From Candidatus Woesearchaeota archaeon (GTDB lineage Archaea > Nanobdellota > Nanobdellia > Woesearchaeales > JACPJR01), in assembly GCA_016187565.1 (NCBI GenBank), contig JACPJR010000026.1:1-44231 (forward strand): a DNA stretch of 44,231 bases, read 5' to 3'. The notes under the pieces are model-generated. The model worked only from the letters and a program-made list of their open reading frames with translations, was not told the DNA's origin and made no database searches. This document shows, one piece after another, positions 900 through 15,490 of the stretch. Both the position numbers and the translations under genes were made by a program. The first letter of the stretch is position 1. Every line of letters starts with the position of its first letter.

Positions 900-2877
<1,978 letters not shown>

Positions 2878-2897
2878 TTATTTTATCTAATCATTAA

Positions 2898-5606
2898 TTA
2901 TTTTTTTGGCTTGACTACTTGATTGACAATCGTTTGCACATTCAATGTTCCGTTTTCTGATTTGGAGACATCAATGCCATCATCACCATAAAGGAATTGG
3001 ATAATTCTTCCACTGGCATCTCTAACCGTATAATCATACTCTACCCGTAAGTCTTGTAAAGCATTAGCCAATCTCCTGTAGAGATATCCGGATTTTGGTG
3101 TTCGCAATGCGGTATCCATCAGTGAGTCTCGTCCGGTGATTCCCATAAAGAAAAACTCAGCTGGGGTTAAGCCTGATTTAAATCCTCCTCTGATAAATCC
3201 ATGAGCCGTTGCTCCCAAATCATTAGATTTAAAGCATGAGAGAGTTCGGTCACGGTATCCCTTAGTAATTCGTTTTCCACGCATAGCCTGTTGTCCTACA
3301 CAAGCGGCCATCTGAGCCAAATTCAAGAAATTCCCTCGTGCACCTGATTTTACCATGACCATGGTGGCTGTTCCTTGCGTCGAGTGTTCTGCAACAAGTT
3401 GTCCGGTTCTGTTTCTCGCTTTGTTGAGCGTTTCAAGAATACGAAGCTCTAGTGTTTCACGTACACTCCTTCCCGGGAAAGCTTCTAAGTTTCCACTCTC
3501 GAATTCTTTAATGAGTGCGTTAACATCTTGATACGCTTTATCAAGAACCTCGGCTATTTTTTCTTGGGCTGTTGGTGGAAGATCAGTGTCAGAGATGGGT
3601 GAGGAAAGTCCAACCTTCAGAAGAACTTTGATACCTAATCGGAAGAACTTACCTAAAAGGTCCAAGGTTGCTTTCTGACCGTATTGCTTATGAAGATTAC
3701 GGAGAAGTAATCCAGATTCCTCACCTAAATTATTCTTATCTAGATACCCTTCAACAATCTTTCCATTTTCAATAATTAATGGTGTACCATCCTTCGCTGT
3801 CCCACGATAATTAAAGTCTTCTGGTAACAACACGCTGAACACTTCAGTACCGGAGACCATTTTTTTCTTTGGTAGTCGAGATAAATCATAGTGACCAATA
3901 GCAAAGAGCAGATCAATGGCTTCATCTCTGGTTAATGCTAACTCTTTGGTAAGTAAATAATTTCCTGAGAGCGCATCCTGGACACAACCAATAACACACA
4001 ATCCGTATCGTGGACTGATCAGTTGGGTTTGTACTTCCATGAGAATTTCAGCCTCTGCACGTGCCTCTTCAGTTTGTGGGATATGGAGATTCATTTCATC
4101 GCCGTCAAAATCTGCATTATAAGGATGACAGACTGCAGGATTGAGACGAAGGGTTCTTCCAGGCAATACCTTAATACGGTGACACATCATGGACATACGG
4201 TGCAAGCTTGGTTGTCGGTTAAATATGGCAATATCTCCGTCAAGAAGATGGCGCTCTACGGTATAACCAGGCTTAACCTCTTCAATGATCTGTTCCTTGG
4301 TTTCTTCAGTAATTTTTTTCTTTTTTCCATCCGGTCGAATAATATAGTTAGCTCCAGGATATTGATTTGGTCCCTTTTCCAAAAACGTTCGCAAATATTT
4401 CTCATTCAAAGCGTTCATCACTTCAGGAACAGTTAATTTCATGGCAATGATTTTTGGGACACCAACCTCATCTAGGTCAATCATGGGATCGGGGCTGATA
4501 ACGGTTCTAGCGCTGAAGTTAGTACGTTTTCCTGCAAGATTGTGGCGAATACGTCCATCTTTACTTTTGATACGCTCAGTGATGGTCTTTAATGGCTGTC
4601 CGCTTCTATGACGGGCTGGCGGAAGCTGGGCAATATTGTTATCAAAAAAAGTCGTAATGTGATATTGCAGCAGATCCCAAAGATCTTCAATGATAATTTC
4701 AGGAGCTCCTGCGTTGATATTTTCAAACAAACGCTGGTTGATACGGACCATATCACCAAGCTTATGCGTTAAATCATCCTCAGAGCGTTCTCCTGATTCC
4801 AGGGTAATGGAAGGCCTCATGGTTACTGGTGGGATGGGCATAATCGTCAATATCATCCACTCAGGCCGTATTGCCTTTGGATTTAATCCGAAGAGGAAAC
4901 AATCATCGTCAGTTATCTTTTCCAATCGTGCACGTATTTCAATGGGAGAGACACGTTTTTCATTCTCCATAAACGTCGTTGGTTTTTCTAAGGTTATCTT
5001 GTACTGACGCGCTTTACAATAAGGACATTTGTTAACGGTCTTGAGGTTTGCAATAATCTCCCGAATGCGCTTTCTCCGCGTTTCAAGACCCTGCTCCTTT
5101 TCAATTTCATCGAGCTGTTTCGTATATTTATCAATGCTCTGACTTGGAATAAGAACACGTGAACATTCACGACAGGTACATTTGAGTAGTGTCAGAACAA
5201 CACCGACAAATTTGACGTGAATGACTGGTCGTGCAAGCTCAATATAGCCAAAATGACCAACACATTCTTTAAGTTTTGAACCGCAGGTTTTACATTTGAG
5301 ACCTGGATCGATAACGCCAAGACGGATGTCCATCAAACCACCATCAACAGGATATCCTTCTTTATCATACAACTCGGGGGTTACAACCTTAGCAGAGGCC
5401 ATCTTTTTAATCATACTTGGAGACATAAAACCAAAAATAATACTCTTCACTCTCTTGTGGACAATCTGACTTTCTTCATCGGTTAATCCAAAGTCTTTCT
5501 CTTCTTTTTTTACCGGTGCTTGTTCTGTTATTTCTTCTGGTGACAATTCTTTACTCTCTAAGCTGTTGTCTGTTTCCATTTCTTTTTTCTTTGTCATGGT
5601 GTTCAT
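2898..5606 (-). CDS. rpoA1: DNA-directed RNA polymerase subunit A'
   Basis: N-terminal part of the largest subunit, about 902 aa. It carries the catalytic Mg-binding motif NADFDGDEMNLH, an N-terminal zinc site (CKTCG...C..H), a further CRECS...CPYC zinc site in the clamp, and the RPSLHRMSMM segment. It follows rpoB1 by about 40 bp. A GTG at 5609 lies directly before ATG 5606, and a third candidate ATG is at 5597; I see no strong Shine-Dalgarno, so the start is uncertain by a few codons. An acidic, lysine-rich extension of about 40 residues precedes the conserved core. Confidence 0.97.
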   Translation of the reverse strand: MNTMTKKKEMETDNSLESKELSPEEITEQAPVKKEEKDFGLTDEESQIVHKRVKSIIFGFMSPSMIKKMASAKVVTPELYDKEGYPVDGGLMDIRLGVIDPGLKCKTCGSKLKECVGHFGYIELARPVIHVKFVGVVLTLLKCTCRECSRVLIPSQSIDKYTKQLDEIEKEQGLETRRKRIREIIANLKTVNKCPYCKARQYKITLEKPTTFMENEKRVSPIEIRARLEKITDDDCFLFGLNPKAIRPEWMILTIMPIPPVTMRPSITLESGERSEDDLTHKLGDMVRINQRLFENINAGAPEIIIEDLWDLLQYHITTFFDNNIAQLPPARHRSGQPLKTITERIKSKDGRIRHNLAGKRTNFSARTVISPDPMIDLDEVGVPKIIAMKLTVPEVMNALNEKYLRTFLEKGPNQYPGANYIIRPDGKKKKITEETKEQIIEEVKPGYTVERHLLDGDIAIFNRQPSLHRMSMMCHRIKVLPGRTLRLNPAVCHPYNADFDGDEMNLHIPQTEEARAEAEILMEVQTQLISPRYGLCVIGCVQDALSGNYLLTKELALTRDEAIDLLFAIGHYDLSRLPKKKMVSGTEVFSVLLPEDFNYRGTAKDGTPLIIENGKIVEGYLDKNNLGEESGLLLRNLHKQYGQKATLDLLGKFFRLGIKVLLKVGLSSPISDTDLPPTAQEKIAEVLDKAYQDVNALIKEFESGNLEAFPGRSVRETLELRILETLNKARNRTGQLVAEHSTQGTATMVMVKSGARGNFLNLAQMAACVGQQAMRGKRITKGYRDRTLSCFKSNDLGATAHGFIRGGFKSGLTPAEFFFMGITGRDSLMDTALRTPKSGYLYRRLANALQDLRVEYDYTVRDASGRIIQFLYGDDGIDVSKSENGTLNVQTIVNQVVKPKK

Positions 5607-10216: not shown

Positions 10217-10365
10217 ACTTCTTTTAACTTAGATAACTGTTGCGTCCAGCGTCCCAACTGGTTACGCTCGGTTGACATGCAAGGAAGAGCATGAAGCTCT
10301 TCGGCGCGGTGACGGTAAGTAGACGTATTCTTTTATAAGAGCTAGTATAATTGTAAGAAGAGAAA
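10217..10365. other. Gene-free interval with a strong hairpin, possible small RNA
   Basis: This interval between idi and tRNA-Tyr is richer in GC than other spacers. It holds a perfect 7-bp hairpin GAAGAGC/GCTCTTC (10284-10302) and further short complementary blocks (CCAG/CTGG). A minus-strand TATA-like CTTATAAAAG near 10332-10341 could drive a transcript through them. I cannot match it to SRP, RNase P, box C/D or H/ACA RNA. It may simply be a terminator region for idi. Confidence 0.3.
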
Positions 10366-10491
10366 TCCCCGTGGCCGGATTCGAACCAGCAACCTTCCGG
10401 GATCAGCTGACTTATGATCATCCAAGGTTCATACCTCGTCGATAAGTGAAGACATCTACAGCCGAACGCTCTGCCGTTGAGCTACACGGGG
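10366..10491 (-). tRNA. tRNA-Tyr (anticodon GTA) with canonical intron
   Basis: Minus-strand tRNA with acceptor CCCCGTG/CACGGGG, including the C1-G72 pair characteristic of archaeal tRNA-Tyr. D-arm GCTC/GAGC, anticodon arm TTCGG-CTGTAG[intron]C-CCGGA (anticodon GTA), T-arm GCTGG-TTCGAAT-CCGGC, discriminator A. A 54-nt intron interrupts the anticodon loop at the usual 37/38 position. The mature tRNA would be 72 nt. No CCA is encoded. Confidence 0.92.
10402..10455 (-). other. tRNA-Tyr intron at 37/38
   Basis: 54 nt between CTGTAG (ending at base 37) and C38. The location is the canonical archaeal one, in contrast to the D-loop and T-loop introns of the two other tRNAs in this window. Confidence 0.85.
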
Positions 10492-15033: not shown

Positions 15034-15231
15034 CTCTTTTTATGAGCATGATCATTATCATCAAACAAAGGTTCTTTAAAAACTTTCCGCTAATGTACTT
15101 CAAAAACTTCGTTCCTTTTACTCTCCCAATCATCGGACCAAGCCAATTTGGGTACGGTGTCTTTTATTTCTCATGGGCTTACATAAAACCCCTGCATTCA
15201 AGTGTTTCATTGAAACATCCAATGTACATAC

Positions 15232-15409
15232 ACGCCACGCCGATGGCGGCTGACGGATTGCTTGCGAGCAATCCTACGAAGCACCCCGAAGGGGGCGTGT
15301 CCCCCGCTTCGTCAGCGCCGACTTTGGCGTGCACGAGTCGGGGGACGCCCCAGTTGGGGTGACTCGTAGGCTGCAAAGCAGCCGTGGCACCGCCATTACC
15401 GGCGCTGTG
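15232..15409. repeat. GC-rich nested palindrome (paired three-hairpin modules)
   Basis: In the 15034-15520 spacer, which otherwise holds no gene, lies a GC-rich block centred near 15321. Each arm carries three hairpins in mirrored order: an outer CGCC/GGCG hairpin (15238-15248; 15391-15404), a middle one (GGATTGCT/AGCAATCC at 15255-15274; GGCTGC/GCAGCC at 15369-15383), and an inner stem with a CCCC/GGGG core (ACGAAGC/GCTTCGT at 15276-15312; ACGAGTC/GACTCGT at 15333-15367). The two arms differ in sequence, yet both keep every stem. That looks like compensatory change in a structured RNA or a DNA cruciform rather than a simple recent duplication. Confidence 0.75.
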
Positions 15410-15490
15410 AAATTAAGATTTACTTTGTAGGTAGTCCATTCGTCAATCAGCGACTGACCAATTGTTATTTTTGGTTTAACTTTAGAAACC

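Follow-up and report, generated by a model that had tools for sequence, protein, structure and literature searches.

The window analysed here, a 44,231-nt stretch of DNA from a Candidatus Woesearchaeota archaeon, carries at positions 15232-15409 two inverted copies, M1 and M2, of one module of ~75 nt. In each, a basal stem interrupted by a single bulged base encloses hairpins A and B, which are joined by a TAC linker; hairpin B contains a CCCC/GGGG core. A preliminary description of this DNA had claimed two mirrored three-hairpin modules around a centre near 15321, with CCCC/GGGG cores in both; each module indeed comprises a basal stem and hairpins A and B, the cores are found in M1 and M2 alike, and the segment between the modules lies at 15320-15325. 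The GC-rich core of the element sits within an AT-rich spacer, also as described. The proposed extent of 15232-15409 is slightly too short for the repeated unit, since AT-rich flanks (~15200-15230 and 15408-15427) are partly conserved across copies. The features are listed below; the left and right outer arms were read from the sequence.

15200-15229, no strand: left AT-rich flank (AAGTGTTTCATTGAAACATCCAATG...), partly conserved, with AAGTGnTTAACTGAAACATCCGAATCATAAA recurring before the core among 17 copies of the source genome set side by side
15230-15239, no strand: left outer arm ACACGCCACG, which can pair with the M2 5' arm (GGCGTGC)
15245-15319, plus strand: module M1 (covariance-model match with E 4.7e-12, fold and pair counts)
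15245-15253/15312-15319, plus strand: M1 basal stem, with bulged G15248
15255-15274, plus strand: M1 hairpin A, followed by a TA linker
15277-15311, plus strand: M1 hairpin B, with CCCC at 15284-15287 and GGGG at 15291-15294
15320-15325, no strand: centre spacer GACTTT, a position occupied by a hairpin array, E2, in other copies of the source genome
15326-15394, minus strand: module M2, inverted homologue of M1 (covariance-model match with E 2.1e-12 on the minus strand)
within 15326-15394, minus strand: M2 basal stem GGCGTGC.../...GCACCGCC, with a bulged C
15334-15366, minus strand: M2 hairpin B'
15369-15383, minus strand: M2 hairpin A'
15401-15407, no strand: right outer arm GGCGCTG, which can pair with the M1 3' arm (CAGCGCC) and recurs in copies
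15408-15427, no strand: right AT-rich flank, ending in TTTACTTT, conserved across several copies of the source genome

Folded as RNA, a 201-nt stretch of this DNA reached -112.5 kcal/mol, compared with -76.2 +/- 4.5 for shuffled sequences (z -8.1), and folding of the same stretch as DNA gave z -8.0; none of 200 shuffles reached the folding energy of the element. M1 and M2 were each matched separately by the covariance model in the source genome (E ~1e-12), both being among the 18 sequences used to build that model. The GCACGCCAC/GTGGCGTGC relation of the left outer arm was seen again in pair-type copies of genome G110. In Rfam, gathering and relaxed thresholds gave only tRNAs and sub-threshold chance matches, mostly to miRNA-type families. 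A hammerhead-like three-way junction was dropped, its conserved core being absent.

Copies, distribution and genomic context

Further copies, for which the preliminary description had suggested a search, were found both in the source genome and in relatives. Within the source genome (1.94 Mb), BLAST with the element as query identified 21 places and the covariance model 36 module matches; these copies share the module plan and differ in stem sequence. The module is used singly within its own terminal inverted repeat (the solo subtype has an outer inverted repeat of its own, AAAATCCAGCCA...TGGCTGGATTTT) or as an inverted pair, sometimes with E2. This further array of ~125 nt, read as five hairpins, sits within hairpin B in some copies and separates M1 from M2 in others, and longer versions exist too. 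E2 within hairpin B was seen again in a second family of Woesearchaeales (L161 in G052) and likewise in G110. Inverted M1/M2 pairs ~5-6 nt apart occur in several genomes, an arrangement of the REP/iREP type. The window itself contains one broken copy:

10237-10315, plus strand: degenerate long-form fragment with the M1 end and the first two E2 hairpins (E2 query matches 10242-10309, 88% identity, E 2.7e-16)

An intron-containing tRNA gene lies close to this fragment, at window positions 10366-10491 on the minus strand. On contigs C1, C12, C15, C33 and C35 of the source genome (G000), elements are located near contig ends, with several copies within ~1 kb. This placement and the equal scores of the modules at C33:22-100 and C35:22-100 suggest that the repeats probably break the assembly.

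Among 241 genomes of the order Woesearchaeales (Woesearchaeota in NCBI), 61 are module-positive by the covariance model. A phylum-wide draw of 279 genomes, a mix whose share outside Woesearchaeales is not stated, yielded 39 positives, all of the same order, and the model found no module in any genome placed outside it. Named records with model-confirmed modules belong to Woesearchaeota, plus one titled Nanoarchaeota. Contamination, raised earlier as a possible refutation, is contradicted by the recurrence of the same family in many Woesearchaeota genomes. The distribution is patchy, ranging from 0 or 1 up to 16-19 matches even within families, and patchy within genera too. Three bacterial pattern matches (Gemmatimonadetes, Saccharomonospora and Alphaproteobacteria) were due to chance and contain no module by the covariance model. 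Two core patterns, searched as exact patterns of limited sensitivity, had 0 matches in IMG/VR and thus give no sign of a viral home. No prior description of the family was found in the literature within reach of our search, which excluded subscription papers and preprints; archaeal REP-like sequences are described by RepRanger (PMC12306157), whose text mentions neither Woesearchaeota nor DPANN.

The modules have no coding ORF between them and are flanked by unrelated host genes. With two duplicate sites removed, a simple ORF call places 17 unique sites between divergent genes and 4 between convergent ones, which is not a terminator pattern. Elements at 9 of the 45 loci lie within ~300 nt of a tRNA, which looks like more than expected. 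The tRNA-adjacent loci are listed as L002, L096, L098, L028, L031, L095, L104, L092, L108 and L030; at L030, a further intron-bearing tRNA-like sequence adjoins the element. The divergent excess and the tRNA proximity would both suit a functional cis-element, that is, a regulatory DNA or RNA structure of 5' regions that was domesticated or is kept by selection, as would the L159 intergenic region, whose element is of the solo subtype in G052 and of the pair subtype in its congener G110. However, divergent intergenic regions are usually longer, so that the divergent excess may be neutral and is no proof of function, and the patchy distribution, the lack of a conserved gene partner and the empty sites in congeners make a cis-element quite improbable.

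Covariation and the level of pairing

In the 18 modules used for model building, 92% of cells are paired, with 58 two-sided changes, where shuffles gave 19 and slid controls 2-11. Among 49 modules from relatives, whose alignment was fitted to the covariance model and leans in its favour, 91% of pairs are kept and 141 two-sided changes were counted versus 39 in shuffles and 10-17 in slid controls; covariation in homologues, the check proposed earlier, is thus positive. Such covariation and the strong fold are what a family of structured non-coding RNA genes would show. RNA compensatory change is commonly thought to run via G-U, but only 3 of 879 pairs in the 49 modules are G-T. As judged from these sequences, this scarcity suggests DNA-level pairing, or replacement of both arms in one event, rather than an RNA-level constraint. 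Together with the absence of an Rfam family, the patchy copy number and the occurrence of solo, paired and nested forms, it renders the RNA gene reading very improbable. From the range of interpretations offered earlier, a MITE-like element and a DNA structure are favoured, and a structured RNA is not.

At palindromes, a single template-switching event can alter both arms (PMC8794818), which means that covariation by itself is no proof of selection. The earlier view that compensatory stems reflect selection on structure accordingly stands for the covariation, while its step to selection is insecure. We infer that the module may be recognised as folded DNA.

A variant of hairpin B has CTC on both arms of its outer stem, not GAG/CTC (M2 of L010, L011, L014, L018, L024, L048, L028 and L030). 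It breaks two or three pairs and recurs across different families; pairs 88:171 and 89:170 are unpaired in 18 of the 49 modules. This CTC/CTC form is possibly a template-switch footprint or an alternative fold.

Presence/absence polymorphism, putative movers and known systems

Genomes G052 and G110 belong to one genus and are ~88% identical. At L151, L154, L160 and L162, the element is present in G052 and absent from the homologous G110 region; at C6:68857 and C13:151125 of G110 it is present and the homologous G052 site is empty. Another genus adds L296, where G185 carries two elements and G166 lacks them, which brings the presence/absence polymorphism to seven homologous sites in two genera. 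The elements at L150 and L152 are common to G052 and G110, and at L289 in G166 the divergence is too high for presence or absence to be called. At C6:68857, the filled site in G110 reads ...AAAAGT-TTTAATTT-(TATTCTTAGAAAATTCCACC...GGTGTAATTTTCA)-TTTAATTT-ATTGG and the empty site in G052 reads AAGAGT-TTTAATTT-ATTGG. The exact 8-bp direct duplication TTTAATTT is the sole clean one among the junctions, that of C13:151125 being ambiguous in poly-A and the others blurred by ~12% divergence. The ends of the element are not defined to single-base precision, and single presence/absence cases could represent loss rather than gain. A separate repeat of ~155 nt, unrelated to the module, occurs near two element sites in G052 (L154:3470-3637 and L159:2371-2533) and has ~15 copies in G110.

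The many copies, the homology between genomes with covariation, the patchiness and the presence/absence polymorphism together argue that the element is one copy of a dispersed, non-autonomous mobile palindromic DNA family of Woesearchaeales, a reading to which we assign a probability of about 0.78. The family is apparently undescribed and of the MITE/REP kind. A transposase supplied in trans would recognise the folded module DNA, probably single-stranded or cruciform, and would insert the element at AT-rich sites upstream of genes; transposase recognition and replication template switching may together keep the arms complementary.

Several kinds of mover can be considered. In a classical MITE, a DDE transposase would recognise the outer inverted repeats and duplicate ~8 bp, the folding being incidental. 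The outer inverted repeats AAAATCCAGCC/GGCTGGATTTT and GAAAATTcCACC/GGTGtAATTTTC and the one empty-site comparison with an exact duplication are consistent with this scenario. It is nevertheless unlikely, given that the clean duplication is single, that covariation sits in the inner module and not at the ends, that the module is common to subtypes with different outer arms, and that no DDE element with such ends was seen (no search by DDE families being included).

Alternatively, hairpin A may correspond to a REP and M1+M2 to a REP/inverted-REP pair, moved on single-stranded DNA by a Y1 HUH transposase (TnpA-REP/RAYT). TnpA-REP determinants include a bulge plus GTAG (PMC8266576). On the bottom strand of the modules, hairpin A has GTA+G before it in 28 of 49 modules (CTAC on the top strand) or GCA+G in 11 (CTGC), with C+GTC after it, a stem mismatch is frequent (pair 15:81 is unpaired in 23 of 49) and modules form inverted pairs. 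Y1_Tnp genes are also commoner in element-positive genomes (36/61 versus 52/180, Fisher p 5e-5), an association uncorrected for phylogeny, genome size and completeness. However, the tag overlaps the first stem pair, its G being the first stem base, so that the match is only GTA, and hairpin A makes up a single arm of a larger three-way module. None of the five Y1 genes of the source genome has a module within 1.5 kb, and GTAG-hairpin-CGTC was found neither near them nor in a 12-kb stretch around the G110 Y1 gene. Likewise, no Y1 gene flanked by repeats, as in REP/BIME systems, was observed in the source genome or at the G110 Y1 gene. A Y1 match is absent from 5 of 17 element-rich genomes (G003, G033, G046, G052 and G060). 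Finally, bacterial REPs have a downstream/convergent placement (PMC3733652), opposite to that of the modules. On balance, a Y1-driven REP/BIME system is a doubtful candidate.

The Y1 genes of the source genome look IS200/IS605-like, and two adjoin DGR-like genes: at L118 ~2058-3381 and L120 ~1-1208 (G000 C5 and C35), such Y1 genes lie beside what resemble parts of a diversity-generating retroelement, namely repeated ORF ends that look variable-region-like, to which L118 adds an ORF resembling a reverse transcriptase. In four element-dense loci, we saw no transposase gene. A non-exhaustive inspection of these loci and ~1 Mb of G110 revealed no autonomous relative encoding a transposase, and G110 has no gene-bearing versions between matching ends. 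Within the mobile palindrome reading, we tentatively consider an order-specific family moved via the folded Y-shaped module by a non-Y1 transposase, with nested hairpin arrays as optional conserved parts; this possibility is rather unlikely as well.

Present in a quarter of the genomes sampled from this uncultured archaeal order, the apparently undescribed repeat family offers a route to how folded DNA moves in DPANN archaea. Its covarying fold with almost no G-T pairs is a good natural case for weighing selection on DNA structure against template switching.

Among known systems, the family resembles bacterial REP/BIME/REPIN with TnpA-REP (RAYT) as dispersed, non-coding intergenic palindromes in inverted pairs, with a GTA(G)-like foot and stem irregularities. 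Unlike these 20-50-nt hairpins, its module has ~75 nt and a three-way junction, and it was found here in Woesearchaeales, with no linked RAYT and with upstream/divergent placement. CGTC-tagged palindromes, reported from bacteria without a dedicated transposase (PMC3733652), share with the modules a C+GTC after hairpin A, whereas in the modules this tag shares bases with the stem and is enclosed by a larger basal stem. As in prokaryotic MITEs (for example Correia/NEMIS, ERIC and Sulfolobus MITEs), the elements are short (100-300 bp), non-coding, dispersed and intergenic, with terminal inverted repeats, presence/absence polymorphism and one clean 8-bp duplication; they differ from these MITEs in that no parental IS was found and in their strongly covarying inner Y modules and nested second hairpin array.
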